DNA of 58,041 nucleotides from a virus. Shown piece by piece: positions 1-58,041 of this stretch (the first letter of the stretch is position 1; each line of letters begins with the position of its first letter). Under the pieces are notes generated by a model. The model saw nothing but the letters and a program-made list of their open reading frames with translations, made no database searches and was not told the DNA's origin. The DNA is taken from positions 1 through 58,041 of the IMG/VR virus record IMGVR_UViG_3300045996_002471; one strand, 5' to 3'. Both the position numbers and the translations under genes were made by a program.

Positions 1-1
1 A

Positions 2-304
2 CAGGGACCGCTGCACATCACCATCGCCTCGACCATCCCGCTCTTCGTGGGCGAAGTTCGGACGGGCATGCGGATCGTGGGCTTGCCCGGTGTGTGGGCC
101 GTCCGCGCCCGGCTACAGCTGCGGCACCGGGTGCTGCTACTCGGGGCCGCGGGTGTCCGGCCGGTGTGGCTGCTGGCACGACATGACCGACCGGTCATGG
201 TCACCGCCGAGTCGGTGCAGGCCGCGGTTGACCGCGGATGCCTGCGTATGGACATCGCGCTCGACCGGGCCCCGTGGCCCGACGGCATCCGCCCTCTTCC
301 CTGA
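2..304 (+). CDS. 5'-truncated hypothetical protein
   Basis: An open frame enters from the left edge and ends at TGA 302-304, giving about 100 visible C-terminal residues. The visible part is Arg/Val/Leu rich, with no clear membrane segment or catalytic motif. It lies 29 bp upstream of the next plus-strand gene, so it probably belongs to the same operon. I do not recognise the family. An internal ATG or GTG start cannot be excluded because the true start is outside the window. Confidence 0.45.
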   Translation, partial: QGPLHITIASTIPLFVGEVRTGMRIVGLPGVWAVRARLQLRHRVLLLGAAGVRPVWLLARHDRPVMVTAESVQAAVDRGCLRMDIALDRAPWPDGIRPLP

Positions 305-333
305 CCTTTCCAGCACAGATGGAAGGACCCGTC

Positions 334-1173
334 ATGTACCCGGGGCCCACCCCCACCGTCCGCCCTCAGCCACCCGAGTTCAAGCTGAGCCGGCTGAAGA
401 AGGTCGCCTACGGCATGTCCGTGACCACCGGTGGCCTCGGCCAGGTGCTGTTCCTCGGCTCCGTCTTCGGTGGCACGGTCCTCTCCTACCTCGCCGCGAC
501 CGGCATGGCCGCGTTCGCGGAGTTCGTCATGGCGGCTTCCGGTGACGCCAGCCTGGACCACCGCGTGCACCACCGGGCATGGAAGCTGATGCTGGTCCTG
601 TCGCTGATCGTCGCCTGCTACGCGGGCGGCAACCAGATCGCGCACTTCTGGCACAACAACAAGGCGCTCGCGGTGATGTTCGCCGGGGCCAGCGTGGCCG
701 GGTTCCTGCTGCACATCCTCGACGGGCACATCCGGGCCGCCGCCTACCTGCGCGAGTTGTCCGCCTGGGAAGCCGCCGAGCGCAAGGCAGCCGCGCCGGT
801 ACAGCCGTCACAGACTGTCCGCGTCCAACCCCCGGTGCCGCGCCCAGAGGCCAAGCCTGTGGCCGTCACGCCCCCGGCTCCTGCCGTCAAACCCTCCGCG
901 GCCGAACCCGCTGCCGCGGTTCCGCAGCCGAGGTCCCTGCCCGCTGCCGACCCGAACAACGTCACCCCGATCACCAAGCACGGCGGGTTGTCGCAGCGTG
1001 AGCAGGCCTACCAGTGGTTCGCCGCGCAGATCGACGCAGCGGGAGGCGACCTGTCCGCCGTGTCCGGGCCCGACATCGCCGCACAGTTCGACTCCGACCA
1101 CCTGAAGAAGAAGATCACCGAATTCAAGCGGCGCTACGAAGCGGAACACCCGCCCGCCGCTGTCAACGACTGA
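334..1173 (+). CDS. Membrane protein with proline/alanine-rich linker and C-terminal helical domain
   Basis: 279 residues from ATG 334, chosen because GGAAGGA (321-327) lies 6 nt upstream. Hydrophobic segments lie at about residues 25-50, 87-105 and 113-133. A Pro/Ala/Val-rich linker follows (about 150-215), then a charged C-terminal domain (about 215-279) ending in a KKKITEFKRRYE helix that could bind nucleic acid or a partner. This layout resembles small membrane (spread-type) proteins next to traB in actinomycete conjugative elements, but no family was recognised. It is the first complete gene of the cluster leading to the FtsK-like ATPase. Confidence 0.75.
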   Translation: MYPGPTPTVRPQPPEFKLSRLKKVAYGMSVTTGGLGQVLFLGSVFGGTVLSYLAATGMAAFAEFVMAASGDASLDHRVHHRAWKLMLVLSLIVACYAGGNQIAHFWHNNKALAVMFAGASVAGFLLHILDGHIRAAAYLRELSAWEAAERKAAAPVQPSQTVRVQPPVPRPEAKPVAVTPPAPAVKPSAAEPAAAVPQPRSLPAADPNNVTPITKHGGLSQREQAYQWFAAQIDAAGGDLSAVSGPDIAAQFDSDHLKKKITEFKRRYEAEHPPAAVND

Positions 1174-1207
1174 CCGCCCGGACCAGGGCAAGGAGGAACG
1201 ATCCGTC

Positions 1208-1687
1208 ATGAATGGCGCAGACAGAGTGTGGCTCGGCGCGAACATCGTGGGTGTGGTCCTGCTGGTCTGGGGCGGCCTGCGGGTGTGGAAGAAGAAGCCG
1301 GCGAAGTTGACCACGTGGCTGTGGTTCGGCGCGGGCCTGACCCTCGGGGGCTGGCTCGTCGACAGCCTCCGTGAGCTGATCAAGAAAGCCGCGGCGGGTG
1401 CCAGCCCGGCGGTCGGCATCGGCATCTACTCGATCATCGGCATCACCGGCTGTGCCCTGATCTGGCTGATCCTGCACGAGTTCCCGCTCCGCAAGGGCCG
1501 CGGAGGCGGAGGGCCCGCGGTCGCCGGGGGCGCCGGGACAGCGGGGAAGACCTACATGCCGTACGTCGGCCTGCTCACGCCGGTCCTGCTCCTCACGACC
1601 CCGGGCGTCCTCGGCGACGGTGCCCGCTCGCTCAGCAACCTGCTGGGCAAGCTCGGGGGTCCCCTCGGCACGTTCATCGGGGCGTGA
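1208..1687 (+). CDS. Small multi-pass membrane protein
   Basis: 159 residues. Hydrophobic segments lie at about residues 8-25, 37-53, 68-90 and 115-135, and a Gly-rich loop (about 97-111) sits before the last one. AAGGAGGAACG precedes the ATG. It follows the previous gene by 34 bp and is followed within 1 bp by the next ATG, consistent with one operon. Its position upstream of a TraB-like translocase suggests a role in the transfer apparatus or envelope anchoring; that is inference from neighbours only. Confidence 0.7.
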   Translation: MNGADRVWLGANIVGVVLLVWGGLRVWKKKPAKLTTWLWFGAGLTLGGWLVDSLRELIKKAAAGASPAVGIGIYSIIGITGCALIWLILHEFPLRKGRGGGGPAVAGGAGTAGKTYMPYVGLLTPVLLLTTPGVLGDGARSLSNLLGKLGGPLGTFIGA

Positions 1688-1688
1688 C

Positions 1689-2195
1689 ATGGAGATCGTC
1701 CTGCTCTGCCTTCTGGTCGCCTGGTTCCTCGTCTACCGCTGCGTCCAAGACACCGCGACCCTGGCCCGGCGGGGAGCGGCGTGGGTCGCCGACCGGCTCG
1801 GCGCCCCCGAAGTCGCCACGTGGCTGCGCGACCAACCTTCACCCACACAGCCACGGACCTCCGACGGGCAGCGGATACTCGCCGCGCTCGGCGAGGTGGC
1901 GGCCTCCGGGGTGTTGCTGTTGCTGCTGTGGCTGCGGTTGGCCGTGATCGACGCGATCGGCGCTGCCCGTTCCGCCAGCCGCCGCCGCCCGGCGCCGGTC
2001 CCGTGGGAAGGGCTGTGGGCGTGGCTGCTGTGGCTGCTGCGCTGGCTGACCCGCTGGTTCCGGTGGCCCCGCGACGGCGAGCCGCACGCCCCGGTCCGGG
2101 CCACAGCCACCCGCACGGACCGCCCGCCTCCCGCCGCGCTGCCCCCCGGGCAGCCGGTCAGCGTCACCTTCACCTTCACCCACAACAAGGAGTAG
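1689..2195 (+). CDS. Trp-rich membrane protein
   Basis: 168 residues from ATG 1689, one base after the TGA of the preceding gene, which suggests translational coupling. There is an N-terminal hydrophobic helix (about 3-16), a second segment at about 71-90, and a Trp/Leu-rich stretch (about 105-130) ending in a basic, Pro-rich tail. No recognised domain. It belongs to the run of three consecutive membrane proteins in front of the FtsK-like ATPase. Confidence 0.68.
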   Translation: MEIVLLCLLVAWFLVYRCVQDTATLARRGAAWVADRLGAPEVATWLRDQPSPTQPRTSDGQRILAALGEVAASGVLLLLLWLRLAVIDAIGAARSASRRRPAPVPWEGLWAWLLWLLRWLTRWFRWPRDGEPHAPVRATATRTDRPPPAALPPGQPVSVTFTFTHNKE

Positions 2196-2197: not shown

Positions 2198-2515
2198 GTG
2201 AACGAACTGGAATCCGCGTCGACCACCGTCGCCGCCGGCGAGAACAGCCTGGCCACCTACCTCAGCTTCGGCCAGGGGATGGTCGACGCCTGCGAGCAGG
2301 GCTCCGGCCTCACCGAGACCACGACCGCGAACATGCGCACCAACGACTGGTCCGGCCCGCGCGTCGAGCACTACGAGCGCGGCAAGGAACTGCTCGACCA
2401 GGCCCGTGCCGCGTTCGCCGACGGTGTGACGGCGCTGGAGGAGTCGAAGATCGTCGCCGACGCCTACAACGCCGCGCCGGGCACCGGCAACAAGGAAACC
2501 GCCACCAACCTCTAA
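2198..2515 (+). CDS. Small soluble helical protein
   Basis: 105 residues from GTG 2198, with AAGGAG at 2188-2193. It is acidic and predicted mostly helical, with a central N-D-W-S-G turn (about residue 49) between helices. That superficially resembles a WXG-type helical hairpin, but the family is not established. It closes the first part of the cluster and is followed by a strong hairpin. Function unknown. Confidence 0.65.
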   Translation: MNELESASTTVAAGENSLATYLSFGQGMVDACEQGSGLTETTTANMRTNDWSGPRVEHYERGKELLDQARAAFADGVTALEESKIVADAYNAAPGTGNKETATNL

Positions 2516-4882: not shown

Positions 4883-5222
4883 CATCACCCTCGGTGACGG
4901 AAAGCCCTGTCCGGATCGTCGGGCAGGGCTTCTCGCTTGGCCATGCAAGCTTGCATCGACCCATGCATTTTCGGCCATGCAAGCTTGCATCCCAATGCAA
5001 GGGTCGATGCAAGCTTGCATGGCCCATGACCTGCGAAAATGCAAGGTCGGGCGGGGTATGCAAGGGGTACCCTTGCATCTCGCCCAGTGGGCCGTTTTCG
5101 CAGGTCAGGGGCCTGTGTGCACGGATTCCCACCGTCACGCCGGCCCCCATGCATTCGTCGTCCTCGCGGGGCCGCCGCCCGTTCGCGGGGTCATCACCCA
5201 CTGTCACAGATCGGAGTCAGCA
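4883..5222. repeat. Non-coding region with nested ATGCAAG palindromes (candidate clt/oriT-like site)
   Basis: A 340-bp gap just after the FtsK-like gene. The 14-bp palindrome ATGCAAGCTTGCAT occurs at 4943-4956, 4977-4990 and 5007-5020. The first and third copies extend into 24-bp inverted copies of each other (4939-4962 and 5001-5024) centred almost on the second. A further perfect palindrome starting ATGCAAGGG lies at 5058-5078, inside a 13-bp inverted repeat TGACCTGCGAAAA (5027-5039) / TTTTCGCAGGTCA (5095-5107). Isolated ATGCAA copies occur at 4995 and 5039. Early on, 4908-4934 also forms a weak terminator-like hairpin. Such an array next to a traB-like gene is what one expects of a transfer locus or a multimeric protein binding site; the function is inferred. 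Confidence 0.75.
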
Positions 5223-5693
5223 GTGACCGACTCGACCGCCCTGCTCCTCGTGCTCGCCGCCGTTGCGTACGGGGTGTGGCACTGGCGCAACCGCTACACC
5301 GCGCCCGCCGCGCCGGGCGGACAGCTCGACACCGCGGAGTTGCGTGAGTTGGACATCGCGCTGGTGCGCTGCGAGCACCCCGACCATCACCCGGAGATGG
5401 TGCCGTTCGCGCCGGTCCGCTACCGGCACGCCCACGAGGACGTCCGCCAGCTCAGCCTCGACGGATGGGGAGCGACCGAGCGGATGAACACGTGCCGGGT
5501 GCACAACACCGCCGGCTGGGTCGGGGATCTGCACGTGCAGTGCTCGCAGCCCGGCTGCCAGACCCACCACCTGATCCCCGTAGCCGATCCCGAGGTGGGG
5601 ATGAGGGATCTGCGGAACCGGGGATGGTGCAACGTCGGGGACCGGGTGGTGTGTCCCTACTGCGCCGGTACCCGCTCCCGCGTCTGGCGCTGA
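5223..5693 (+). CDS. Membrane-anchored zinc-ribbon-like protein
   Basis: 156 residues from GTG 5223 (GGAG at 5213-5216). One N-terminal hydrophobic helix (about residues 4-18) is followed by a soluble domain. Cys/His pairs suggest a metal site: C-E-H near residue 47, C-R-V-H near 90, C-S-Q-P-G-C near 109, and a C-terminal C-P-Y-C knuckle. No family recognised. It lies between the two repeat arrays downstream of the FtsK-like gene, and copies of GGGGATC (5523) and GATCCCC (5573) already occur inside its coding sequence. Confidence 0.7.
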   Translation: MTDSTALLLVLAAVAYGVWHWRNRYTAPAAPGGQLDTAELRELDIALVRCEHPDHHPEMVPFAPVRYRHAHEDVRQLSLDGWGATERMNTCRVHNTAGWVGDLHVQCSQPGCQTHHLIPVADPEVGMRDLRNRGWCNVGDRVVCPYCAGTRSRVWR

Positions 5694-5828
5694 TCCCCGA
5701 TCCCCAGGGGAGTGCGGATCCCCACCTGCGATCCCCATCCGAGGTCCCCGCCGATCCCCACCTCGAACCCGCCCGCCGATCCCCACCGGCCCGCGGTCCC
5801 CACACCCCCGGTACCCACGTCGATCCCC
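5692..5828. repeat. GATCCCC heptamer array
   Basis: Seven exact GATCCCC copies in one orientation start at 5692, 5699, 5717, 5730, 5753, 5778 and 5822. Three GGTCCCC variants lie among them (near 5743, 5795 and 5837). They fill the roughly 150-bp gap between two genes. Given base composition, a 137-bp stretch should contain such a heptamer only rarely. The arrangement resembles recognition arrays of TraB/FtsK-family translocases or iterons. Confidence 0.75.
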
Positions 5829-5842
5829 AGGAGGTGGTCCCC

Positions 5843-6571
5843 GTGATGGGACGTACCCACGCCCTCACCGGCCTGTGCGCCGGCCTCGCCCTCGCGCCCG
5901 TCATGGCCGCGACGTTCGCGCAGTCGGTGCTGGTCGCGGTCGTGACCGCCGGATATGCACTGCTCCCGGACCTGGACCATCCCGGCGCCCGTGCCTCGCG
6001 CCTGCTCGGGCCGGTGACCGGGTTGCTGTCGCGGGCGGCCAGGGCGGGGAGCCGCTGGCTGTACGCGCGCACGAAAGGTCCCCGCGACGAACGCCACCGT
6101 GGGGAGCACCGGCACGCCACCCACACCGTCGCGTTCGCGGTGCTGGCGGGGATCGTGGCGGCGGCGGGTACCTGGGGAGCGGGGGCGTGGGTGGCGGCGG
6201 GGATCACCCTGCTGGGGACCCTGTTGGCGGTCGACGCGCTCGGGGACTGGCTGCTCCCCGTGGTGGGGATCGCGGGGATCGCGTGGTGGGGAGCGGCCGG
6301 CGGGGATGTCCTCGGGGAGTTGGCGGGGATCGGTCCGGCGTTGGGGATCGCGGTGGCGGTGGGGTGCGTGACGCACTGCCTCGGGGATGCGGTGACCCTG
6401 TCGGGGTGTCCGTTCCTGTGGCCGCTGCTGATCGCCGGGGAGACGTGGTACGAGCTGCGGCCGCCGCGGTGGTTGCGGTTCCGGACGGGCGGGGCGGTGG
6501 AGACGCGGGCGGTGTTCCCGGGGTTCGTGGTCTTAGCTGGGGCGTTGGCCCTCAACCTGCCACTGGGGTGA
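5843..6571 (+). CDS. YdjM/DUF457-like membrane-bound metal-dependent hydrolase
   Basis: 242 residues from GTG 5843, preferred over ATG 5846 because AGGAGG (5829-5834) is 8 nt upstream of the GTG. Family hallmarks are visible: the N-terminal G-R-T-H-A-L-T-G, a L-P-D-L-D-H-P segment (about 36-42), a His-rich R-H-R-G-E-H-R-H-A-T-H stretch (about 87-97), and the C-terminal H-C-L-G-D (about 178-182). Several membrane helices surround these. The family is predicted to hydrolyse an unknown substrate at the membrane. The gene is unusually rich in GGGGATC, encoding repeated Gly-Ile pairs. A strong bidirectional hairpin follows. Confidence 0.8.
   Translation: MMGRTHALTGLCAGLALAPVMAATFAQSVLVAVVTAGYALLPDLDHPGARASRLLGPVTGLLSRAARAGSRWLYARTKGPRDERHRGEHRHATHTVAFAVLAGIVAAAGTWGAGAWVAAGITLLGTLLAVDALGDWLLPVVGIAGIAWWGAAGGDVLGELAGIGPALGIAVAVGCVTHCLGDAVTLSGCPFLWPLLIAGETWYELRPPRWLRFRTGGAVETRAVFPGFVVLAGALALNLPLG
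6148..6349. repeat. GGGGATC repeats inside the hydrolase gene, inverted to the upstream array
   Basis: Exact GGGGATC copies start at 6148, 6199, 6265, 6274, 6325 and 6343, with near copies GGGGATG at 6302 and 6383. They are the reverse complement of the GATCCCC array at 5692-5828, so the two clusters point at each other across the start of the hydrolase gene. The repeats are in frame and encode Gly-Ile, so protein-level repetition is part of the explanation. Confidence 0.6.
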
Positions 6572-7304: not shown

Positions 7305-7820
7305 ATGAACCACGACCGCGCGGAACAGGACCTCATCGACTGGGGCATCACCAACCGCGAACGCGACGCCCGCATCCTCCGCGGAATCCTCGCCGGCATC
7401 CCCAAAAACCGCATCAGCCTGCTCACCGGCGTCGCCCGCAACACCATCACCAACCTCCTCAGGGACGAGTACCCCGAGGTCAACACCGCAGCCGTGCTCC
7501 GCGCCATGGCCCGCGTCCACGCCGGCATGACCGCCGCCGAGTTCGACTACAGCCTTTCCGTCGGTGACGGCCGCGCCCTACAGGCCATGAACGGTGCCGC
7601 CTACCTGCTGGCCAACGAGGACCACCCCGACGTGCAGTCCGGCGACACCGAACAGGCGCTGGCCGAGCGGCGGCAGCGGGCAGACGCCCTGTGGGAGCAG
7701 GTGTGGCCCGAGGTCGAGGCCATGGTGCGGCGCGCGAAGACGATGAAGTTCACCGGATGGTCGACCGAAGCCAAGGCCCGCGGCCAGAAAATCGCCTACG
7801 CGTCGAAGGGGGAAGCGTGA
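7305..7820 (+). CDS. Helix-turn-helix DNA-binding protein
   Basis: 171 residues. A helix-turn-helix-like segment lies at about residues 25-50 (I-P-K-N-R-I-S-L-L-T-G then A-R-N-T-I-T-N-L-L), typical of small regulators that recognise DNA with the second helix. The C-terminal half is charged and ends in a basic tail. It heads a four-gene operon with 4-nt overlaps and starts at a leaderless promoter, so it is probably the operon's regulator. Confidence 0.7.
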   Translation: MNHDRAEQDLIDWGITNRERDARILRGILAGIPKNRISLLTGVARNTITNLLRDEYPEVNTAAVLRAMARVHAGMTAAEFDYSLSVGDGRALQAMNGAAYLLANEDHPDVQSGDTEQALAERRQRADALWEQVWPEVEAMVRRAKTMKFTGWSTEAKARGQKIAYASKGEA

Positions 7821-8257
7821 TCGACCCGATCTCAGGACTGTTCGGGCAGCTCGTCTGCGGCGGGTGGATCGGCGAAGACCCCCGTGACGGCAGCGACCTC
7901 GCGTTCCTCTACCTCGCCACCCCCGGCGACGGCGCGCTCGGTCTGCCTGCGGCGCGGGCGATGGCGCTGATCGCCGAGACCATGGGCATCGACCCCCGGC
8001 AGGGCGCCGTGACCCTCGACCCGCCCGCCACGACCACCGTCGAGGTCCGCGCTGGCGGCTGGGCGGCGCTCGTCGTCAACGGCGAGACCGTGGCCGAGCG
8101 TCCCACCTCCGCCGAGTGGGTCGCGACCGCGTGCGCCGTGGGCCGTGTCGCGGTCGGCCTGGCCTACACCGCCCTGCCCGCAGGCGGCACGGTCGAGCAG
8201 CTCACCGACGGCCCGTCGGTGCTGGCCCTGCTTTCCGTCGTCGACACCAGGAGATGA
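7817..8257 (+). CDS. Hypothetical protein, operon member
   Basis: 146 residues from GTG 7817, which overlaps the previous stop by 4 nt (GTGA). A mixed alpha/beta sequence without membrane segments or known motifs; it contains a V-E-V-R-A-G-G-W-A-A-L-V-V-N-G strand pair. Coupled translation with its neighbours suggests a shared function, unknown. Confidence 0.65.
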   Translation: MIDPISGLFGQLVCGGWIGEDPRDGSDLAFLYLATPGDGALGLPAARAMALIAETMGIDPRQGAVTLDPPATTTVEVRAGGWAALVVNGETVAERPTSAEWVATACAVGRVAVGLAYTALPAGGTVEQLTDGPSVLALLSVVDTRR

Positions 8258-48683: not shown

Positions 48684-49346
48684 TCAGACCAGCGCCGGGA
48701 ATCCCATCGCGACCAGCAGCGACCGCCACCCCGGCCCGCCGAAGAAGTGCCGCACGCTGTAGCCCGCCGTCGAGTCGACCGCCGCCGACATCGTCATCTG
48801 GTAGGCGACCGGATCGTCCCCGTCGGTCCACACCTGGTCCCCGCGTTCGGTCACCGACGCCCGCGGCAGCAACCGGCCCACGTAGATGGCGTCCGTACCT
48901 GCCCCGTCCACGAAGATGCCGTAGGCGCGGTAGTACTTCGTCGACGGCCGGGTCGGCTGGGAGAACGCGATCTCACCGGTGATCGCGGTCGGCGTCACCC
49001 CGGACAGGTCGACGTCGTAGTACATCTGCAGGGTCTGCAGCTTGGTTTCCTGGGCGGTGAACTGCAGCCCGTTCACGTCGCTGTTGATGTCGCGGCGGGT
49101 GGGGTCGAACGCGCCCCACGACGTCACCTCCGACACCTCGGTGCTGCGGGACCAGGTGGCGCCGTCGTCCTTGGACACCCAGCCGATGTCGTCGTACCCG
49201 GCGGGCAGCGCCGCCAGGTCGGCGCCCGCGCCGGTGGTGAGGGTCGCGGGCAGCGTGCTGGTCATCGGCGCGAAAAACAGGCTGCCGGCCAGCGCCTTGC
49301 GGATCAGTTCGACCTGCTTGTTCGCCAGGTCCTCGTATGCGGGCAT
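48684..49346 (-). CDS. Major tail protein
   Basis: 220 residues. Beta-rich sequence with D-I-G-W-V-S-K-D-D-G, F-D-P-T-R-R-D-I and an alternating strand core, as in siphovirus tail-tube proteins of actinophages. Position between the tail-completion genes and the chaperones supports it. Confidence 0.85.
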   Translation of the reverse strand: MPAYEDLANKQVELIRKALAGSLFFAPMTSTLPATLTTGAGADLAALPAGYDDIGWVSKDDGATWSRSTEVSEVTSWGAFDPTRRDINSDVNGLQFTAQETKLQTLQMYYDVDLSGVTPTAITGEIAFSQPTRPSTKYYRAYGIFVDGAGTDAIYVGRLLPRASVTERGDQVWTDGDDPVAYQMTMSAAVDSTAGYSVRHFFGGPGWRSLLVAMGFPALV

Positions 49347-49385
49347 CCCGCGGCCTCCCTATCGGGTTCGGGGCGTGGTGAGACG

Positions 49386-49404
49386 GCCCCGTGAACAGCG
49401 GGGC
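49386..49404 (-). terminator. Small hairpin upstream of the major tail gene
   Basis: GCCCCG (49386-49391) pairs with CGGGGC (49399-49404) in the 79-bp gap before the major tail start. May attenuate read-through or stabilise the abundant tail mRNA. Confidence 0.4.
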
Positions 49405-49425
49405 TGAAAAGACTCGGATGAGGTG

Positions 49426-49836
49426 CTACTGGGGGCGCGGCCTGCGCCACGCGAACCGGAACGTGCCGACCTTGCGCCGCAGGTCCGGGTTGTCGTACGG
49501 GACCCGCACCGGCGAGCTCGCCGTCTCCGCCTTGTCGATCAGCACACCGGTCGGATAGTCCTCGGTGACGACCTTCGTGTTCGGTGCCGCCAGGATCGTC
49601 ACCAGGCAGTCCCGGGCGAGCTTGCGTGCCGTGTCGTAGGTGGTCGCGAAGCAGGCGACCTCGACGAGCGGCCGGTCGGTGATGCCGTCGTCCTCACCGC
49701 CCACCCGGGCGACCTGGATGACCGGTGTCTCGTCCTCCAGGTCGGCGTCGGTGGAGGTGGTGGTCGGTGCGCGTTGGGCGAGCAGCGCCATCACCACGTC
49801 CTCGGCGTCCGGGAACGGCGGCAGCTCGGCCGCCAT
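49426..49836 (-). CDS. Tail terminator-like protein
   Basis: 136 residues. Starts with a helical D-A-E-D-V-V-M-A-L-L and alternates helices and strands, ending in a basic tail. Size and order (after the HK97 gp10-like protein and before the major tail) match tail terminators. Confidence 0.65.
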   Translation of the reverse strand: MAAELPPFPDAEDVVMALLAQRAPTTTSTDADLEDETPVIQVARVGGEDDGITDRPLVEVACFATTYDTARKLARDCLVTILAAPNTKVVTEDYPTGVLIDKAETASSPVRVPYDNPDLRRKVGTFRFAWRRPRPQ

Positions 49837-50153
49837 CAGCCCGCCTCGATGATCGGGATGGAGGACCGCAGGGCGTGGTCACCGCCGCGTTTGTTACGAC
49901 CGAACTCGGCCGGTGCGGAGTGGTCGGAGTCCGCGATGATGTTCGCGCCGACCCTGTCCTTGCGCAGCCCGGCGTTGCGGATGCGTTCGACGTGGATCGA
50001 GTCGGCGTGTGCCCCGGTGAGCCTGCTCGCCCGGCCGCGTGCGTGCGCCGCGCCCAACTCAGCACGTTCGGCCACGAGGTCGGCGAGCTCGTCGGACTGC
50101 AGCAGAGGACGCAGGCCGACGCTGTTGGGCCGATAGTCGGTGATGCGTGCCAT
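49836..50153 (-). CDS. HK97 gp10-like connector protein
   Basis: 105 residues from ATG 50153. Helical N-terminus (L-Q-S-D-E-L-A-D-L-V-A-E-R-A) and a beta end (S-I-H-V-E-R-I). One-base overlaps with neighbours. Fits the minor head-tail joining protein. Confidence 0.66.
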   Translation of the reverse strand: MARITDYRPNSVGLRPLLQSDELADLVAERAELGAAHARGRASRLTGAHADSIHVERIRNAGLRKDRVGANIIADSDHSAPAEFGRNKRGGDHALRSSIPIIEAG

Positions 50154-50500
50154 CAGCCCTCCACGTTCTTCAGCACGATCTCGACGCCGGGTGTCCACCC
50201 GGTGTACGGCGACGTCCACGAGCCGGGTTCGCCGTCGACGTGGTAGCGGGTGCCGTCTGGCAGCACGACCTCGTCGGTGGCCTTGATGTCCGCGCCGAAC
50301 GGTGCGAGCAGCACGAGCCCTTCGGTGATGGTTTCGCGGGCGGCCAGTTGCTCACGTGCGGCGTTGCCGGATCCCCGCGGGTACACCGCGCAGCCCGACA
50401 CCAGATGCTCGCTGCCCGCGCCAGTCCGGTCGCCCCAACGGTCCTTCACAGCGGGCCGCTTCACGACGACAGTGACGGTATGGGTGAACCCGCTGGTCAC
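50153..50500 (-). CDS. Head closure (stopper) protein
   Basis: 115 residues, strand-rich. Contains H-T-V-T-V-V-V-K-R, then V-V-L-P-D-G-T-R-Y-H-V-D-G-E, typical of SPP1 gp16/HK97-type head closure proteins. Confidence 0.68.
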   Translation of the reverse strand: MTSGFTHTVTVVVKRPAVKDRWGDRTGAGSEHLVSGCAVYPRGSGNAAREQLAARETITEGLVLLAPFGADIKATDEVVLPDGTRYHVDGEPGSWTSPYTGWTPGVEIVLKNVEG

Positions 50501-50949
50501 CAGTGGTCCTCGGGTTCGGGCCCGTTGGACCGGATCACAGGTTCGGGATGGCGGGGCGACCCGGCCAGGTACGGCAGGGCGTCGTCGACCATCTCCACCG
50601 ACACGGGCCCGGACCGCAGACCGAGTCGCCGCCGGTCATCGCGGGTCAAGTACAGCTTCCCGGACGCCACCGCCTGGTCGACCTGGACCGAGAACGGCCC
50701 GGCGGACTGCTGCGCCACCCCCGCAGGGTTGCGCAACACCCGCAGGACCATGTCGCACACCACCAGCCGCACCAGCGCTGCTGTGGTGTGTCCGGCGGCT
50801 ATGTGCGCGGCCACGTCCCGACCGCGCACATAGCTCGCCACGATCTCTTCGGCGTTGTCGAGCTTCTGCTGCAGCTTGTCGTCCTGGTCCTCGGCGAGAG
50901 TTCCTTCGAACTCCAGCCGCAGGTCCTCGAGGGAGGCGTACACCGACAC
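50497..50949 (-). CDS. Head-tail adaptor (connector) protein
   Basis: 150 residues, mostly helical (Y-A-S-L-E-D-L-R-L-E-F-E-G-T at the start, E-I-V-A-S-Y-V-R-G-R-D). Matches head-tail connector proteins that sit under the portal. Overlaps the stopper by 4 nt. Confidence 0.72.
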   Translation of the reverse strand: MSVYASLEDLRLEFEGTLAEDQDDKLQQKLDNAEEIVASYVRGRDVAAHIAAGHTTAALVRLVVCDMVLRVLRNPAGVAQQSAGPFSVQVDQAVASGKLYLTRDDRRRLGLRSGPVSVEMVDDALPYLAGSPRHPEPVIRSNGPEPEDHW

Positions 50950-50978
50950 GATCGACCTCCCTGAACGTCAAGCCGCGG

Positions 50979-51236
50979 TCAGGACAGGGGCTTCCACTTC
51001 GACCGCACCGAGTCCGCCGCGCCGGACGGGGGCGTGTCCTGCGCCTTCGCGGTGCTGCCGGTCACCCCGGCGACGGTGTAGTCGTCCCGGTTCTTCTCCG
51101 GGTGCGCCTCGCCGACATAGCCGTACTCGGGGCCGTCCGCCGGGGCCACCACGTTCGCGGCGGCGTCCGTCTGCAACGGCTTGGCCTGCTCGTCCGTCGC
51201 CTGGTCGGTGTCGGTGGTCTTACGCTGGGTTGCCAT
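50979..51236 (-). CDS. Small head-region hypothetical protein
   Basis: 85 residues from ATG 51236. Low complexity N-terminus, then A-D-G-P-E-Y-G-Y-V-G-E. Lies between capsid/decoration and connector genes. Function unknown. Confidence 0.58.
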   Translation of the reverse strand: MATQRKTTDTDQATDEQAKPLQTDAAANVVAPADGPEYGYVGEAHPEKNRDDYTVAGVTGSTAKAQDTPPSGAADSVRSKWKPLS

Positions 51237-51250
51237 CAGGTCAGTTCCTC

Positions 51251-51661
51251 TCAGCTCGACGCGGTGCGGGACACCGTGACCCGCACCAACCCGCCAGGGT
51301 CGGCGATACCGGTGCCCACGGCCACGGACCGCCACTGCAGGACGTCGCCCTCGGCGATCACCAGGTCGGCGGCGGTGGCCGACAGCGGGATGGTCTTCTG
51401 GTCGTTGGCCGTGGCGTTGACCCCGGACGCGAAGTTCAGCGTCGCGATCACCGTCGTGCCGGACCCGGCCTGTCCCTTGTTGACCAGGGACACGGTGCGG
51501 TTGTTGGTGGCCGCGCCGGTGATCGCCGCCTCCGGGATGTACTCCACGGCGGTCACGGTCCCGGCGAACGGCGCCTGGGTGAGGACGGAGTCGTCGGAGT
51601 TCCCCGCGGTGCTCACGGCGGGTACGTCGGCCTCGATCGGCCGGATGAAGGGTGCGCTCAT
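51251..51661 (-). CDS. Putative capsid decoration protein
   Basis: 136 residues from ATG 51661. Strand-rich jelly-roll-like sequence (F-A-G-T-V-T-A-V-E-Y-I-P then T-V-S-L-V-N-K-G then G-D-V-L-Q-W). Position right after the major capsid gene suggests a decoration or stabilisation protein. Confidence 0.62.
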   Translation of the reverse strand: MSAPFIRPIEADVPAVSTAGNSDDSVLTQAPFAGTVTAVEYIPEAAITGAATNNRTVSLVNKGQAGSGTTVIATLNFASGVNATANDQKTIPLSATAADLVIAEGDVLQWRSVAVGTGIADPGGLVRVTVSRTASS

Positions 51662-51678
51662 CGCTGCGTCTCCTCGGC

Positions 51679-52635
51679 TCAGAAGATCATCGCGGCGGCC
51701 GGGTACCGGGTCGCGTCGTTGGGGTTGTCGTCGTTCAGGGTGTTCGCGACCTGCCAGCCGACCCGGAACTTCACGCGCATGGCGACCATGTCCTGCTGGG
51801 CCAGGTTGAACACGATCGCGCCGGTGTTGTCCTGGATGACGGCCTGGTCGAGCATCTTGAAGCTGATGTCCTGCCGGACACCGACCTTGAACTCGTTGGC
51901 GAAGTCCCCGGCGAACAGTCGCACGTTGGTGCCCGCGCCGCCACTGGTCGACCAGGCGCCGCGCATCGGGTAGGCGACCGGCGCCCCGTCGATGGTGGAC
52001 AGGTCGCCGGACACGCGGCCGACGTCGAGCTTGCGGCCCTGCGTGTCCCGCGCCGCACGCAGTCGGCGCCGCGCGCCGCGGGAGGCGACGAAGCCGGTGA
52101 CGTCGAAGCCGTCCTCTTCGACCGCGCCGATGAGGTTGTCCAGGTCGCCCATGTAGCCGCCGGCGGCGGCCGTCGCGGTGCCCTCGGTGACGGTGTTCCC
52201 GGCCGCGATCGCTGCGGCGAGGACGTTGGTCGGGAAGCTCGCGGGCGCGTTCGTGCCGAAGAACACCGCGGTGTCCAGGGCCTTGTGGAACGCCTCGACG
52301 ATGTACGGCTCCGAGGTGTCCCAGATGTCCATCTCCATGTCGGCAACCACGTTCTCCGGGACCGGCATGATGATCGCCAGCTCCTCGATGGTCATGAACT
52401 TGTTCGCCCATGCCATCTCGGTGGTCTGCTTCAGGCCGGTGTCGCCGGTGACCCACTGCGCAACGGGCAGCGCCGACAGGATCGGGAACCGCACCTGGTT
52501 CCGGGACACCGGCACCCGACCGAACAGGTCGAGCACGGCGGAGCCCTGCGTGTCCTTACCGAGCATCTCCCGCGAGACCTCTTCGGGGATCGTCGACTCG
52601 ACGTCCGCCCGAGTGGTGATGTTGTTGTACGGCAC
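51679..52635 (-). CDS. Major capsid protein (HK97 fold)
   Basis: 318 residues. E-V-S-R-E-M-L start helix, spine-helix region (Y-I-V-E-A-F-H-K-A-L-D-T-A-V-F-F-G) and P-domain strand G-A-P-V-A-Y-P are as in HK97-fold capsids. Downstream of the scaffold gene, with AGGTAGACC before ATG 52635. Confidence 0.88.
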   Translation of the reverse strand: MPYNNITTRADVESTIPEEVSREMLGKDTQGSAVLDLFGRVPVSRNQVRFPILSALPVAQWVTGDTGLKQTTEMAWANKFMTIEELAIIMPVPENVVADMEMDIWDTSEPYIVEAFHKALDTAVFFGTNAPASFPTNVLAAAIAAGNTVTEGTATAAAGGYMGDLDNLIGAVEEDGFDVTGFVASRGARRRLRAARDTQGRKLDVGRVSGDLSTIDGAPVAYPMRGAWSTSGGAGTNVRLFAGDFANEFKVGVRQDISFKMLDQAVIQDNTGAIVFNLAQQDMVAMRVKFRVGWQVANTLNDDNPNDATRYPAAAMIF

Positions 52636-52685
52636 GGTCTACCTCCAGATTCTGCGCACAGCGGTCCGGCCGTGCCGCTGGCTGA

Positions 52686-53288
52686 TCAGCCGATCCCGAC
52701 GGAACGTCGGATCAGCGCGTTCATGTCGCTCGGCTGCTTGCCGCCGGACTTGCCCTGGTCGGGATCCGGGGTGGGGCGACCCGCGGCCTTGCGCAGCGCA
52801 CCGACGATGCGGCCGATGGCCTTGTCGTCCGGCTCGCCGTCCTTGAGCAGTCGCTTCGGGTCGAGCTCGTCGAGCAGTTCCTGCACGTCGTCGGCCTTGA
52901 TGCCCGACTCCGCGAGGCCACTGCGCACCCGTGTCAGCGCGAGCTGACCGGCGCGCTTGACGTCCCGCTCGTCGCGCTCCGCCAGTGACCGCTGCATCTC
53001 CTCGACCTGCTGTTGCAGCGTCGTGGCCTGGTTGGCGGCACCCTTATTCTCCCGGGCGCGCTGCTCCCACGTGCGGGCGTGCCCGAGCCGTTCCTTGACC
53101 TTCTGCGGCGACAGGCCGACTTCCTTCGCGAACGCCTTCCAGTCGTCGGCATCCCAGTCGTCCGTGGCGGTCGTGTTCGCGGTTCCCGTTCCGGTCCCCG
53201 CGGTGTCCGTCGATCCGGCCGACTTCGCCGCCTCGTTGCCCTGCTGGCCGCCGTCTGCGGGCGCGCCAGTACCAGCCTCAGTGCTCAT
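52686..53288 (-). CDS. Capsid scaffold protein
   Basis: 200 residues from ATG 53288. Acidic/low-complexity N-terminus, central helical coiled coil (about 85-125), basic helical C-terminus, matching actinophage scaffolds. The leader carries the hairpin pair shared with terS. Confidence 0.78.
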   Translation of the reverse strand: MSTEAGTGAPADGGQQGNEAAKSAGSTDTAGTGTGTANTTATDDWDADDWKAFAKEVGLSPQKVKERLGHARTWEQRARENKGAANQATTLQQQVEEMQRSLAERDERDVKRAGQLALTRVRSGLAESGIKADDVQELLDELDPKRLLKDGEPDDKAIGRIVGALRKAAGRPTPDPDQGKSGGKQPSDMNALIRRSVGIG

Positions 53289-53338: not shown

Positions 53339-54142
53339 TCAGGAAGGCAGATCCGCCTTCGACGTGAACCGGTCACGCGGCCGCACCAACAGGACACCCA
53401 GCTCGCCGTGCTCCGCCGACATCGACACCATCAGGTCCCGATAGTCCGGAGCCCGGCCGCCACGGTCCTCCTTGCCGGTCAGGTCCTTCACCGCCGCGTG
53501 CACCTGCTCCAGCAGGCCTGGGGCGATCACCTGGCCAGGGTCGCGGCCGAACACCGCCAGCACGTAGCAGTCACAGCCCGGATGGATCGGGTTGAGCTCA
53601 CCGATCGTGTAGCGCTGCGTCGACGCGATCACGCACAACCCGCAGTTCTCCAAGCCGGACAGCATCCGGCGCCAGAACCGCGGGCGTGCCGACTCCGGCA
53701 GGCCTTGCAGCGCCGCGCGGGTGGCGTGCGCGTAGGTCTGCTGCAGGTCCATCTCGGCAACCTCTTCGAGCCGCACCCGGCCCAACTCGACCGCCGCGGT
53801 CAACGGCCTGCCCTTGGACAGCGCGTTGTAGACCGTCGCGAACGGGCGCTGATACACGGCGTCCGCGTCGATGTCGCGCCGCAGATTCACTGCCTCGCCG
53901 TCCGGCACACCGGGCGCCGCGAACACGGTCCCTAGCGCCTCACCGGCCTGCGCGGCGACGAACGCCGCCGTCAATGCCGCCAACCCGCGCTGGCTGCCCT
54001 CGACCAGCGGCACCGCCTGCTTCACGAACCGCGCCGCGTCGGCGTCCCGCCACGACCCCAACCCCAAGAACAAGCGGGCCAGCGTCGTGACCAGCCGCAT
54101 CGACAAGCTGCGGCGCAGCACCGCGAACTGCTCCGGCGTCAC
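53339..54142 (-). CDS. MuF-like minor head protein
   Basis: 267 residues. The C-terminal C-G-L-C-V-I-A-S-T-Q-R-Y-T then I-H-P-G-C-D-C motif (about 178-203) is characteristic of the MuF/SPP1 gp7-type domain. N-terminal half helical. Overlaps the portal gene by 4 nt. No separate capsid protease gene is seen. Confidence 0.85.
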   Translation of the reverse strand: MTPEQFAVLRRSLSMRLVTTLARLFLGLGSWRDADAARFVKQAVPLVEGSQRGLAALTAAFVAAQAGEALGTVFAAPGVPDGEAVNLRRDIDADAVYQRPFATVYNALSKGRPLTAAVELGRVRLEEVAEMDLQQTYAHATRAALQGLPESARPRFWRRMLSGLENCGLCVIASTQRYTIGELNPIHPGCDCYVLAVFGRDPGQVIAPGLLEQVHAAVKDLTGKEDRGGRAPDYRDLMVSMSAEHGELGVLLVRPRDRFTSKADLPS

Positions 54143-55608
54143 ACCGACTCACCCGGCGCCTGAAACACCGGCACCCGGGTCGCCGCCGGCTGCTGCCCGA
54201 TCGGCGCCGCCAAGCCCGCCAACGCCGCCTGGGTCGCCATCTCCGACCGCAACGCCTGCACCCGCTGCGGCGACCAGCCGACCTCCTCCACCGCCATCGG
54301 CAGCGGAATCCCGGCGTCCTTCATCTTCGACAGGTAGTCGCCGATCTGGGAGGGCACGAAGTTCTCCGGCCGCGCCCACACGATCTCGCTGTCGGACAGG
54401 TCCCGCGGGCCACCGTCCGGCGCTTCGAGCTCGGCGGCGTCCGCCATCAACTGCAGGACCTCCTCGAGGTCCTCGCCCCACAGCGTGCTGTTCTGCCTGA
54501 CCTGCGCGTTGTGCCCGGCGTCCAGTGCGCCGATCGCATCCGCACCCAGGTTGGTGATGTCGCCCGGCAGGTAGTACACCGGAGTCAGGGTGACCGCGGC
54601 GAACGCCCGCATGTCCGCGTCGACGCCGCGCAGCATCTGCGAGGTGTCCGTCTGCTGCAGTTGGATCAACTGCACGGCCGGGTCGCCCGGCTCGTCCGGC
54701 GGGGGGATCGTGCCGATCTGTGTGACGCCGGGCTTCCACGGGGCGATCGGCTCGCCGGTGACCGGATCCTCGTCGACCTTGTAGTTCAGCAGGATCGCCT
54801 GTCGGAACGCCGCATACCGCTCGGAGGACAGCCTGTTGAGCAGAGTCAGGTTCAGCCGGTTCTGGTCGTCGATTCCGGCGTCGAACGCCGCGACCGGCTC
54901 CTCACCCTCGTCGCCGTTGAGGAACGGCACCACCGGCACACCCGGCAGCGTCCGACCCTCCTGATCACGCTCCTCCCAGGCGTCCGGCTTCCACGAGATC
55001 CGCTGGCCAGCACGTTTCTTCCCGACCTGCTGCTTCGACTGCCAGTGCAGCCGCCGTCCCGGCGCCGTGTCCGAAGCGCCGCGCAGGTACAGGGTGGCCA
55101 TCCACCGCTTCGCGATGTCGTCGTGCCACAACCGCAGCGCCGCCAACCGCCGGCCCGCGTCCGCCGGATCGGTCTCGACGATGACCGTCTCCGGGCCCTC
55201 GATCGTCACCCGTGGTGTCTGCGGCTTGCGCGGGTCAACTCCGACGATCACGTACGCCGCGGACCGGCTGTAGGCCTTGCGCCAGATCCCGTACTGCCGT
55301 GCGTCGAGCCTCGCCCGCTGCCACAGCTGCCACACCGGGTCCGGATCGGTCGACGTCCACTTCGGGTCACGGAACCCGATCGCGTTGGTCCGGTGCACCC
55401 GCGACTCCACGCACAGCTTGCACAGGTTCGTGCGCGCCATCTTCTGGAACCGCCGGTAGGCGGCGGCGTGCTGGTTCGGCCCGGCGGGCAGGTCGTGATT
55501 GCCCTCGTAGTAGCGGCGCCAGAACCGCACCGCCGGCTGACGGTCCAGCAGCTTCGGGCCCAACCGGGCCAGCCACTCGAACGGCTCCAGATCGGTGGCC
55601 TCAGCCAA
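54139..55608 (-). CDS. Portal protein
   Basis: 489 residues. The N-terminal Y-Y-E-G-N-H-D-L-P then K-L-C-V-E-S-R-V-H-R segment, crown-like helices and a Q-L-I-Q-L-Q-Q-T-D-T region fit the SPP1/HK97 portal class. Adjacent to terminase and MuF genes. Confidence 0.9.
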   Translation of the reverse strand: MAEATDLEPFEWLARLGPKLLDRQPAVRFWRRYYEGNHDLPAGPNQHAAAYRRFQKMARTNLCKLCVESRVHRTNAIGFRDPKWTSTDPDPVWQLWQRARLDARQYGIWRKAYSRSAAYVIVGVDPRKPQTPRVTIEGPETVIVETDPADAGRRLAALRLWHDDIAKRWMATLYLRGASDTAPGRRLHWQSKQQVGKKRAGQRISWKPDAWEERDQEGRTLPGVPVVPFLNGDEGEEPVAAFDAGIDDQNRLNLTLLNRLSSERYAAFRQAILLNYKVDEDPVTGEPIAPWKPGVTQIGTIPPPDEPGDPAVQLIQLQQTDTSQMLRGVDADMRAFAAVTLTPVYYLPGDITNLGADAIGALDAGHNAQVRQNSTLWGEDLEEVLQLMADAAELEAPDGGPRDLSDSEIVWARPENFVPSQIGDYLSKMKDAGIPLPMAVEEVGWSPQRVQALRSEMATQAALAGLAAPIGQQPAATRVPVFQAPGESV

Positions 55609-55625: not shown

Positions 55626-57305
55626 TCAGAACGCTGCAGCCCTACGCTTCTTGCGCGGCTTCGCCAGGCCCTTCGCGACCGCGTCACCGCGGCACTGGAA
55701 CGCCAACACCGCCGCCATCGCCGCGTCGATCTTCTTCGGCGACTTCGCGTACTCCTTGCCGATCGTCACGCCGACCTTCCCCGCCAACCGGCGCCGCGCG
55801 TGCAGCACGTGCTGGGTGAGGATCGCGTCGCCGCTGTGCGTGACCTGCTTCGACCGCACCGCCTCGTACAGGCGATGAACTGCGGCCACCACCGCTGTCG
55901 GCCTAGTGGTCCACCACTCGATCGGCTTGTTCAACGTGGCCTTGACCCGCATCCGCCGGCCGTACAGCGAACCCCACCGGTCCACGTACGTCTGCCAATA
56001 CGGCGGGTCCGCATAGAACCCAACCACCTCGTACCGCTCCATCACCGCAGCCACAGCGGCGTCCACGATCTCGCCGTCGACCCGCCAGTCCTTGCCCGCA
56101 GGTCCGACCGGTTTCTGCCAGATCGTCGGCTCGCCATCGTACTCCGGCACGAACAAGTGCCCGTCGGACACCCGGCAGGCGATCAGCGCGGTCGAGTCCT
56201 CGGATACGGCGCCGTCGAAGCCGAGCACGATCCGCTCGCCGTCCGCCACGACGACCGACGCGTCCGCCGCGGCTTCCCACGCCTCCACCGGCATCCACGC
56301 GTTCCCGGCGGAGGTGCGGGCGTTCAGGAAGTACCGGCGGGAGTCCTCCGGGTCCTTCCGGGGGTCGTAGAACTCGTCGACGATGGAGTCGACGTCGTTC
56401 CACTCGATCGCCTCGCCGAACGCCTCCTGGATCGCCGCGCGCAGCATCTCCTCGCGCGACAGGTCCTCGCACACCCCGTAGCGGTGGTCGTACAGCAGCC
56501 GCTGCCGGCGGGTGGTGCGCTTCTGGGTGATCGCCTCCGCGAGCCCGTACGTGGCTTCCGCCACCGACTCCTCGCCCGGCGAGAACATGGTGGTCGTCTC
56601 GAGGTACCAGGTGCCCGCGGTCTTCTTCCGCTTCCGCAGGTTCCGGGTGACCGTGTTGTACATGCGCCGCAGCTCAGGCTGGTTGTACAGGTGCGTCTCG
56701 TCGAAGACCACGAACGTCTCCAGCCCGCCGTCCTTCGACGCCGACGACGCGGTGGACGGCCGGATCTCGCCGCCGCCCGGCAGGAACGTCCTCGTCAACC
56801 CGGCGTCCGCGCCGACCTGTGACAGCAGGGCGTCCTCGTCGGTCAGGTTGTAGTGGATCGAGTCGTACACGTTCCCGGTCTGGCCCTCTTCGGTGGCCAG
56901 CACTCGGATCATCGGCTGCACGACGTGCCGACCCATCGGCTCGCCCGGCTCGTAGACGTACTCGAACCCCAGCCCCCACGGGTCGCGGTACACCTCGCCG
57001 CCCTGGGCGAACCCGGCGAACCGGCACGGACCGAACGCCTCGAACAGTGCGAACCGCGCACCCAAGCCGCTCTTGTCGCAGCCCTTCGGCCGGGAGAAGA
57101 ACGCCGAGTCGTATAGCTGGCCCCCGACGGGGTCCAGCGCGTAGCAGTCGACGACGAACCCACAGAACTCGTCGCCGTGCGACACCTTCATCCCCGCGGC
57201 GTCACCGCGGCCGTGGACGACGAAGTACTCCATCCACGCGACCGCGAGCCACCCGAGAGACCGGGTCCGGTCGTGCTGCGGCGCCCGCACCAGCGTGCGG
57301 GGCAT
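55626..57305 (-). CDS. terL: Terminase large subunit
   Basis: 559 residues. ATPase Walker A R-P-K-G-C-D-K-S-G (about 72-80), Walker B V-V-F-D-E-T-H (about 199-205), and nuclease acidic residues in L-G-F-D-G-A-V-S-E-D-S (about 360) and Y-A-D-P-P-Y-W. Cuts and pumps DNA into the prohead through the portal. Confidence 0.93.
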   Translation of the reverse strand: MPRTLVRAPQHDRTRSLGWLAVAWMEYFVVHGRGDAAGMKVSHGDEFCGFVVDCYALDPVGGQLYDSAFFSRPKGCDKSGLGARFALFEAFGPCRFAGFAQGGEVYRDPWGLGFEYVYEPGEPMGRHVVQPMIRVLATEEGQTGNVYDSIHYNLTDEDALLSQVGADAGLTRTFLPGGGEIRPSTASSASKDGGLETFVVFDETHLYNQPELRRMYNTVTRNLRKRKKTAGTWYLETTTMFSPGEESVAEATYGLAEAITQKRTTRRQRLLYDHRYGVCEDLSREEMLRAAIQEAFGEAIEWNDVDSIVDEFYDPRKDPEDSRRYFLNARTSAGNAWMPVEAWEAAADASVVVADGERIVLGFDGAVSEDSTALIACRVSDGHLFVPEYDGEPTIWQKPVGPAGKDWRVDGEIVDAAVAAVMERYEVVGFYADPPYWQTYVDRWGSLYGRRMRVKATLNKPIEWWTTRPTAVVAAVHRLYEAVRSKQVTHSGDAILTQHVLHARRRLAGKVGVTIGKEYAKSPKKIDAAMAAVLAFQCRGDAVAKGLAKPRKKRRAAAF

Positions 57306-57309
57306 CGGT

Positions 57310-57924
57310 CTACCCTGCCGCGACCCGCGACCGGCGGTCCATCCGGGTCACCGTGCCGCCTGTGGCCGGCTCGGCAGGAGCAGCGGGGGACGTGCCGCCC
57401 TGCTGCTGCGGTGCCTCATCGAACGCCACCGTCCACCGCAACCTGGCCATGGCCAGCGGCGTGAGCCCGAGCCGGTCGGCGTACTGGCGCGCTTCCTTGC
57501 CCGCGTCGAGGTCACCGGAGGCGGCGAGCACCATCCACCGCGTGTACAGCGCAACCTCTTCCAACCAGCCCGATGCCTGCCACTCCACAGCCTGCGGGGT
57601 CCGCCACAGCTTCTCCCACAACGCCAGCTCACGCTCCGTCTGGCCGTCGAGCACCAACCGCAGCGTGGCGACCTTCTCCTCCGCGCGGACCAACTGGACC
57701 TCAGCCACCGGCGCGCCCTCGGCCCGCTTGTCCTCCAACGCCACCAACCGCCCCTCGGCGACCTGCAGCTTGGCCTGCGTGTGCAGATCCGGACCGAGCG
57801 GCCACTCAGGCGTGTCGCCTTGGCGGCCAATGGACGGAAGCTGAGTCAGGCCCGGCTGCTTGTTACGCCGAACCCGCTGGTCAGGATCCTTCGGCAACCT
57901 GCCTGCCATCTGCGTGCGGATCAT
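57310..57924 (-). CDS. terS: Terminase small subunit
   Basis: 204 residues from ATG 57924 (GGGAG upstream); ATG 57909 is alternative. Begins M-A-G-R-L-P-K-D-P-D-Q-R-V-R-R after the second Met, the usual actinophage TerS start, then a helical core (about 100-170) and a flexible tail. Binds cos/pac DNA and regulates TerL. First late gene. Confidence 0.78.
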   Translation of the reverse strand: MIRTQMAGRLPKDPDQRVRRNKQPGLTQLPSIGRQGDTPEWPLGPDLHTQAKLQVAEGRLVALEDKRAEGAPVAEVQLVRAEEKVATLRLVLDGQTERELALWEKLWRTPQAVEWQASGWLEEVALYTRWMVLAASGDLDAGKEARQYADRLGLTPLAMARLRWTVAFDEAPQQQGGTSPAAPAEPATGGTVTRMDRRSRVAAG

Positions 57925-57930
57925 GGATCA

Positions 57931-57970
57931 CTCCCGTTTCGGGATGCGCGGCACCCCGTTCCGGGGAAAC
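57931..57970 (-). promoter_or_regulatory. Leader hairpins of terS
   Basis: CTCCCGTTTCGGGATG (57931-57946) and CCCCGTTCCGGGG (57954-57966) form two hairpins directly upstream of ATG 57924; the first masks the GGGAG ribosome site. The 16-mer is identical to the one before the scaffold gene. Confidence 0.6.
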
Positions 57971-58004
57971 CGCTAGGCCTCAAACAACCGCGCGCACACC
58001 CACA

Positions 58005-58020
58005 ATCGGGGATCCCCGAT
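58005..58020. repeat. 16-bp palindrome ATCGGGGATCCCCGAT
   Basis: A perfect palindrome upstream of terS. It contains GGGGATC and GATCCCC, the heptamer of the left array. The region 57971-58041 is otherwise gene-free and ends with CGCCTACC, which resembles the early operator motif. Could be a late control or packaging-site element. Confidence 0.5.
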
Positions 58021-58041
58021 GCGTACAGACCGCGCCTACCA

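Follow-up and report, generated by a model that had tools for sequence, protein, structure and literature searches.

A predicted temperate actinobacterial siphovirus with a candidate TraB-type DNA transfer module beside its packaging genes

Introduction

In Streptomyces plasmids, the hexameric TraB protein uses its winged helix to load onto the short clt repeats and transports double-stranded DNA, which Spd proteins then spread through the mycelium (PMC3583192, PMC4170104, PMC9513070). Here we analyse the full IMG/VR record IMGVR_UViG_3300045996_002471 (58,041 bp, 69.7% GC; hereafter the window, that is, the whole stretch of DNA), which looks like an integrative phage with a transfer module of the kind found in actinomycete integrative and conjugative elements (AICEs). 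As in the plasmids pWTY27, pJV1 and pSN22, the predicted module combines a membrane-anchored, FtsK-like motor ending in a winged helix, short repeats 3′ of the motor gene, and a DUF2637/Spd or GntR gene nearby, but the motor of the window, g06, is a remote member of the family, and its carrier is a phage with a full structural set. AICEs such as pSAM2 share with the window a tyrosine integrase, with two of its relatives a tRNA site and, as is predicted here, single-protein transfer of double-stranded DNA (PMC3218068, PMC9513070); they are, however, small elements defined by Int, Rep and Tra functions, without the capsid, tail and terminase genes that the window has.

Two described elements are the nearest precedents. 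According to the passages of its 2016 description drawn on here (PMC5431353), in which transfer genes are not mentioned, PhiNon1 of Nonomuraea gerenzanensis (NZ_LT559120, 59,257 bp) is a circular phage that resembles the window in its terminase, portal, capsid and integrase genes and is also able to integrate, at the 3′ end of a tRNA. In its genome, too, small genes and the gene of a 654-aa motor of the g06 family come after a DUF2637 gene, but this module lies between the integrase and lysis genes and not beside the packaging genes, and there is little other similarity. Transfer of the plasmid-phage pZL12 (ZL12; NC_013420) needs a tra gene and two neighbours, as far as the parts of the sources used here go (PMC3583192, PMC7157519); unlike the window, pZL12 is 90 kb long and has ParA and ParB, and its first 50 kb yielded no homolog of g06 or TraB. 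Among isolated phages, Streptomyces phage Samy is nearest by large terminase subunit (TerL, 61% identity); it differs from the window in having no annotated transfer module and an integrase of another family.

Results

Phage genes and transfer-type genes in one element

The window, in which 92 open reading frames (ORFs) were called, is by its gene content a temperate actinobacterial siphovirus (Caudoviricetes), with terminase, portal, capsid, tape measure, lysis and integrase genes (Table 1). On the minus strand, read from right to left, the small terminase subunit (TerS), TerL, portal, head protease, major capsid, connectors, major tail protein, a 1275-aa tape measure protein and endolysin follow one another and end at ~36.8 kb; the small membrane protein g64 next to the endolysin is holin-like by position and is kept in the relatives G001, G011, G012 and G013 introduced below. 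A reading of the letters and ORFs alone (the sequence-only reading) had placed an integrase mid-map between intact phage genes, and an ORF on the plus strand, g61, lies exactly there as the sole tyrosine integrase found in the record, with structural, packaging and lysis genes to its right, and RecT, YqaJ, an exonuclease, helix-turn-helix (HTH) regulators and g52 to its left. It had also reported TraB-like and membrane genes at the left, and indeed the first 0.3-9.4 kb, with all genes on the plus strand, hold a DUF2637-like gene, small membrane proteins, the motor g06 and a YdjM-type gene.

The same reading had proposed looking for conserved linkage of both halves in other genomes. It was found in four other phage records, G001 (57.5 kb), G011 (65.0 kb), G012 (60.5 kb) and G013 (84.4 kb), which carry g02 to g08 in the same order, a related integrase and TerL; in G013, the terminase match (51115-52815) reads through two TAG codons. 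Exactly one tyrosine integrase was present in each of six genomes. Because the synteny holds in five records, each with a single integrase, phage and module can be taken as one element. It is very improbable that assembly or provirus trimming fused a prophage to a plasmid or AICE next to it: the window is linear, without end repeats and of a source that is not known, but five independent records, of which two are circular, share this order with one integrase each, which for the linkage itself already refutes a chimeric contig or a prophage beside a separate plasmid or AICE. DNA nearly identical to the window was not found among phage records, and a scan of genome contigs gave a single short 40% match, which was set aside.

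Integrated and circular relatives

G012 and G013, as well as G002, a further relative described below, have end overlaps of 127, 99 and 127 bp, respectively. Assemblers typically leave k-mer overlaps of such lengths on circles; these records are therefore probably circular contigs rather than molecules with true terminal repeats. G001 and G011, in contrast, are prophages integrated at tRNA-Leu and split beside int: the integrase gene stands at one end and early genes at the other (in G001, a g60 homolog opposite int), and both records end at the same tRNA 3′ sequence; G011 has an intact tRNA-Leu (CAA) in its flank, and more host sequence beyond. Within this flank (64600-65011, locus L134), an apparent CsoR-like repressor was noticed by eye only. 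The integrase thus adjoins a tRNA attachment (att) site in both prophages, as it does in AICEs; a tRNA-like attP core was not recognised in the window itself. The circular G012 and G002 have the gene order of the window, which agrees with the virion or episomal order suggested by the sequence-only reading. Nor did the left part of the window prove to be separated by an att-like junction, since among the repeat families listed none marks a boundary as a direct repeat between 9.36 and 10.4 kb, and the genes of G001 continue unbroken across this region.

No terminal repeat was found in the window, which ends 117 bp past TerS and begins inside g01, a gene for a small protein found ahead of the transfer module in G001 and G012. 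In these two relatives, ~8-10 kb separate TerS from the start of the module, so the record very probably lacks several kb between its ends. In G001 this stretch contains a GntR gene and a primase-polymerase (Prim-Pol) gene (PF09250, 2.5e-6) adjoining TerS, where Samy has a DNA polymerase/primase gene upstream of TerS.

A TraB/FtsK-like motor

Pfam, PHROGs and NCBIfam give g06 no name, and no tblastn match to it was found among INPHARED phage records. The protein has hydrophobic, putatively transmembrane (TM) segments at its N-terminus, Walker A (GTRQGKS) and Walker B (IMAFVDE) motifs and a winged-helix-like C-terminal end; TM segments and winged helix were identified by sequence, and the motor domain by fold. 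When an alignment of g06 and seven homologs was compared by hhalign with a TraB profile that includes pWTY27, pJV1 and pSN22, the probability was 99.1 (E 2e-18) over 409 columns, beginning in the N-terminal TM part, and all controls (terminase, DnaB, primase, an AAA protein, portal and a TraM-type coupling protein) stayed below 5%. A model of the motor domain built from 12 sequences (predicted local distance difference test, pLDDT, 84.6; predicted template modelling score 0.84) was closest in Foldseek to FtsK motors (2e-12) and to TcpA, the conjugation coupling protein of pCW3 (4e-12), with EccC and HerA behind. The full-length AlphaFold model (pLDDT 40.7) was discarded, and PDB sequences searched with a profile of the first g06 alignment yielded HerA alone (E 0.31), which was of no use. 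With its motor, N-terminal TM segments and C-terminal winged helix, g06 has the predicted make-up of a TraB-type DNA translocase, and a ratio of nonsynonymous to synonymous substitution rates of ~0.44 indicates that it is under purifying selection.

The surroundings of g06 also point to plasmid transfer genes. Homologs of g06, and partly also of g02 and g08, stand in similar surroundings in plasmids of Amycolatopsis and Saccharothrix, the nearest plasmid modules being those of Pseudonocardiaceae. The DUF2637/SpdB2-like g02 matches genes of pAS20800 and of the AJ9571 plasmid (E 5e-20 and 3e-19), its counterpart in plasmid FU40 belongs to PF10935, and g05 resembles the C-terminal end of a larger FU40 protein. 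Identity for g08 reaches 73-78% in the four relatives and 52-56% in Amycolatopsis plasmids. Through the G012 homolog, the g06 family extends to genes of Nocardiopsis and Micromonospora plasmids annotated as conjugative DNA transfer proteins; in the Nocardiopsis plasmid, a GntR gene lies upstream of the g06-family gene and NUDIX and DUF3307 genes downstream, and g24 of the window is also DUF3307-like. The g06-family motors of pAS20800 (L103, 36051-38270) and of the AJ9571 plasmid (L104, 22251-24425) carry a sigma-70 factor annotation, apparently prompted by their C-terminal HTH. In pWTY27, an annotated phage major capsid protein gene (L153, 5669-7129) is found near the transfer genes.

Repeats 3′ of the motor gene

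Repeats at the left had been reported from the letters alone, and they are real: directly 3′ of g06, the 340-bp array A holds ten copies of ATGCAAG, a word that occurs nowhere else in the record. Array A also contains a 31-nt inverted repeat (4939-5024) and an inverted pair of TGACCTGCGRAAA near 5027 and 5107. G001 and G013 have the pair at the corresponding position, spaced 66-67 bp apart; one site is present in G011 and two in G012, and TGACCTGCGRAAA is almost absent elsewhere in the genomes of these relatives. The repeated word varies by element (CCATGCA/CCCTTGCA in G001, CTGCAACA in G012 and G013). When the non-coding regions of each genome were ranked by their most repeated 7-mer, the region 3′ of the motor came first or second in the window, G001, G002, G012 and G013. 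Applied to plasmids, the same test recovers the published clt repeat of pWTY27 (TGACACC, five hits), and gives in pSN22 six copies of CCGCACA, the word published for the clt of pJV1. The window therefore has short cis repeats 3′ of its tra-like gene, as TraB/clt systems do, and array A resembles the clt of Streptomyces conjugative plasmids.

A second set, array C, consists of six polar 8-bp direct repeats, GATCCCCA (5698-5829), between g07 and g08. Its position is kept in G011, G012 and G013, and in G001 with the word GGTACCCG. Array C may be the recognition sequence of the motor or a regulatory site, and either array A or array C could be the loading site. The sequence-only reading had instead seen GGGGATCCCC as shared by the left part and the right edge; this word occurs once, at 58008 (expected ~0.29, not significant), and what recurs at the left is GATCCCCA.

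Another TraB module occupies the slot in the closest relative

By its head genes, G002 is the closest relative of the window (major capsid 93%, portal 88% and TerL 86% identical), and a g06 homolog was not found in it. Between terminase and early genes, it carries instead a GntR/UTRA regulator and a divergent 653-aa TraB, which is ~31% identical to the TraB of pWTY27 over ~91% and matches TraB in 51 plasmid records, including pWTY27, pJV1 and pSN22; no INPHARED phage matched it. The gene that follows traB is DUF2637-like by eye, Pfam giving it no match, and ten copies of GGGGTGA lie in the 245 bp 3′ of traB. Viral contigs G021, G022 and G024-G027 also have a TraB-type gene together with a terminase (~6 kb apart in G025-G027, from coordinates); their provirus boundaries are unchecked, and some may be less clean.

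The genome slot that separates the packaging end from the early genes thus appears to be kept for transfer genes, and the strongest argument that it serves transfer is that different modules occupy the same place, each with its own 3′ repeats. What appears to be new is that the slot is conserved while its TraB modules and repeats are exchangeable; no paper describing it was found in the openly licensed literature searched. Whether it defines an actinomycete phage lineage with a dedicated conjugation slot, in which distantly related or unrelated TraB modules with their own cis repeats are swapped, and which spreads both by virions and by TraB-driven duplex transfer through the mycelium, is in our judgement an evenly balanced question.

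Table 1. Positions of the features of the window discussed in the text
Feature	Position	Strand	Evidence or remark
Whole record (G000)	1-58041		58,041 bp
g01, truncated by left edge	2-304	+	tblastn: G001 36%, G012 62% over 21 aa
g02, DUF2637/SpdB2-like membrane protein	334-1173	+	~28% identity to plasmid genes
g03, small membrane protein	1208-1687	+	syntenic in G001, G011, G012, G013
g04, small membrane protein	1689-2195	+	syntenic in G001, G011, G012, G013
g05, 105 aa, directly before motor gene	2198-2515	+	syntenic in G001, G004, G011, G012, G013
g06, TraB/FtsK-like DNA translocase (predicted), 765 aa	2585-4882	+	
Array A, clt-like	4883-5222		repeat analysis
g07, one TM segment and Cys/His-rich domain	5223-5693	+	45-47% identity in four relatives
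Array C, six direct repeats	5694-5842		
g08, YdjM-type membrane protein	5843-6571	+	PF04307 1.8e-22
g10-g12, DUF6003-, DUF5949- and DUF5710-like, end of module	7305-9156	+	g10 65% in G001
Early/lysogeny region	9420-33834	-	
g24, DUF3307-like	13468-14013	-	
Array B, candidate iteron origin	26311-26747		repeat analysis
g52, primase/helicase-like	26748-28328	-	
RecT	29365-30279	-	
YqaJ exonuclease	30279-31190	-	
RNase T-type exonuclease	31187-32068	-	
HTH regulator(s)	32118-32851	-	
Region expected to carry attP	33835-34435		prophages G001 and G011 split here
g61, tyrosine integrase	34436-35653	+	PF00589 4e-18; phrog_1 1e-47
g64, small membrane protein, and g65, endolysin	36824-38148	-	phrog_1493 2e-13
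Tail, connector and capsid genes	38150-53288	-	
Tape measure	43641-47468	-	
Major tail protein	48684-49346	-	
Major capsid	51679-52635	-	
Head protease/MuF	53339-54142	-	
Portal	54139-55608	-	
TerL	55626-57305	-	61% identity to Streptomyces phage Samy TerL
TerS	57310-57924	-	

Early region and further observations

Adjoining the primase/helicase-like g52, array B contains 12 of the 22 copies of CCCTGCA present in the whole record, together with a 40-nt inverted repeat, and is a candidate iteron replication origin; in G016, 12 copies of AACTCCG adjoin the g52 homolog. A 36-nt repeat (CGCCTACC..ACAAACAAGC, 92% identical) occurs at 26345-26380 and at 32853-32888, the latter copy adjoining the HTH genes, and is a possible operator. 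Two candidates were rejected: g35 (19094-20215), weakly suggested by PHROGs to be ParB, is DndB-like (PF14072, 6e-25), and a tRNA-Arg call (8907-9003), considered as an att target, lies inside g12 and was judged a false positive. Within the tape measure gene, segments of 56-57 nt are repeated (44864-45459).

Discussion

The reading we prefer, with a probability of about 0.63, is that the window represents an integrative temperate actinomycete siphovirus that carries a TraB-type module for double-stranded DNA transfer in a fixed slot flanked by the packaging end and the early genes, and that this module drives transfer. It is carried by the anatomy and linkage of the element, the fold and family of the motor, the repeats, the integrated and circular relatives, and the other TraB module in the slot of G002. 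In this respect the sequence-only reading, which had taken the record for a phage linked to a conjugation-type module, was borne out by the synteny in four other records, the slot of G002, the motor profile and fold, and the clt-like repeats.

Since this anatomy fits the plasmid TraB scheme, we propose a TraB/Spd type of transfer, in which DNA binding, movement, regulation and the choice between two routes would work as follows. The prophage would excise through its single integrase and circularise. By one route, the terminase would package the circle into tailed virions. By the other, membrane-anchored hexameric g06 would load by its C-terminal winged helix onto array A, or onto array C after g07, and, aided by the Spd-like membrane proteins g02-g05, pump the circular duplex across the membrane, either past a septum or into an adjacent hypha, where the circle would re-integrate. 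By analogy with the plasmids, conjugal or intramycelial transfer could thus take place without virions, and a single replicon, as the sequence-only reading had conceived, might be both packaged and transferred from cell to cell. A Kor-like repressor of the GntR/UTRA type would keep the second route off and perhaps lies in the unassembled gap of the window record; a GntR gene flanks the module in G001, G011 and G013, three of the four module-bearing relatives.

Several observations weigh against this interpretation. Similarity between g06 and proven TraB proteins is remote (20% identity over the aligned region), and FtsK-fold proteins of unassigned role are present in other phages, so that the fold alone does not prove transfer. 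No match to PF01580 (FtsK_SpoIIIE), the Pfam family used to call the Tra of AICEs, was obtained for g06; this test is insensitive here, however, because the clear TraB of G002 likewise gives no match at E 0.001. In G011, the repeats 3′ of the motor are weak, this region coming fifth of 15 non-coding regions in the 7-mer ranking; array A has a more palindromic structure than most clt described so far; and a clear 3′ array was not seen beside the g06 homologs of plasmids. Finally, neither a Kor-like gene nor the Prim-Pol that would correspond to the Rep of AICEs was seen in the window; the stretch missing between its ends may explain the lack of the former and may have contained the latter, but in the circular G012 no GntR gene scored above threshold.

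The principal competing explanation, which we regard as unlikely though the most serious of the alternatives, is that the module encodes a DNA translocase acting inside its own host, to segregate the episome among spore or hyphal compartments, to resolve dimers or to assist the lytic cycle, and that no transfer takes place. Such a role requires neither relaxase nor type IV secretion system, the motor fold is as near to FtsK as to TcpA, and array A with its spaced inverted pair could be a centromere-like or recombination site. The DUF2637-like and small membrane genes and the plasmid homologs, on the other hand, point to plasmid transfer systems, and the slot of the closest relative holds a genuine TraB accompanied by a Kor-like regulator. 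Intramycelial spread, the Spd function, is partly compatible with both explanations.

It is less probable still, and in our view improbable, that these elements are true phage-plasmids, maintained as extrachromosomal replicons in the lysogen, as the sequence-only reading had considered. Circular contigs among the relatives and the iteron-like array B beside g52 are consistent with this, and PhiNon1 has been described, in the passages mentioned above, both as a 17-copy circle and as integrated (PMC5431353). Yet circular contigs may also derive from induced or packaged phage DNA, partition functions were not found (no ParA, PF13614, in ten records, the window and nine comparison records, and g35 is not ParB), an integrase is present, and G001 and G011 are chromosomal at tRNA-Leu. 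Of that earlier proposal, the hybrid with a transfer module therefore stands, and the term phage-plasmid lacks support.

Known phage-plasmids seldom have a transfer system of their own, and P1-like ones gain mobilisation genes mainly while losing their phage part (PMC10879196); the complete integrative phages described here retain a single-motor transfer module. The system is small and directly testable. If transfer by an integrative siphovirus with a TraB-type module is confirmed, such phages would have a way of spreading through their filamentous, septate host that depends neither on lysis nor on a virion receptor, and the boundary between prophages and AICEs would be blurred, so that tools calling one would miss the other.

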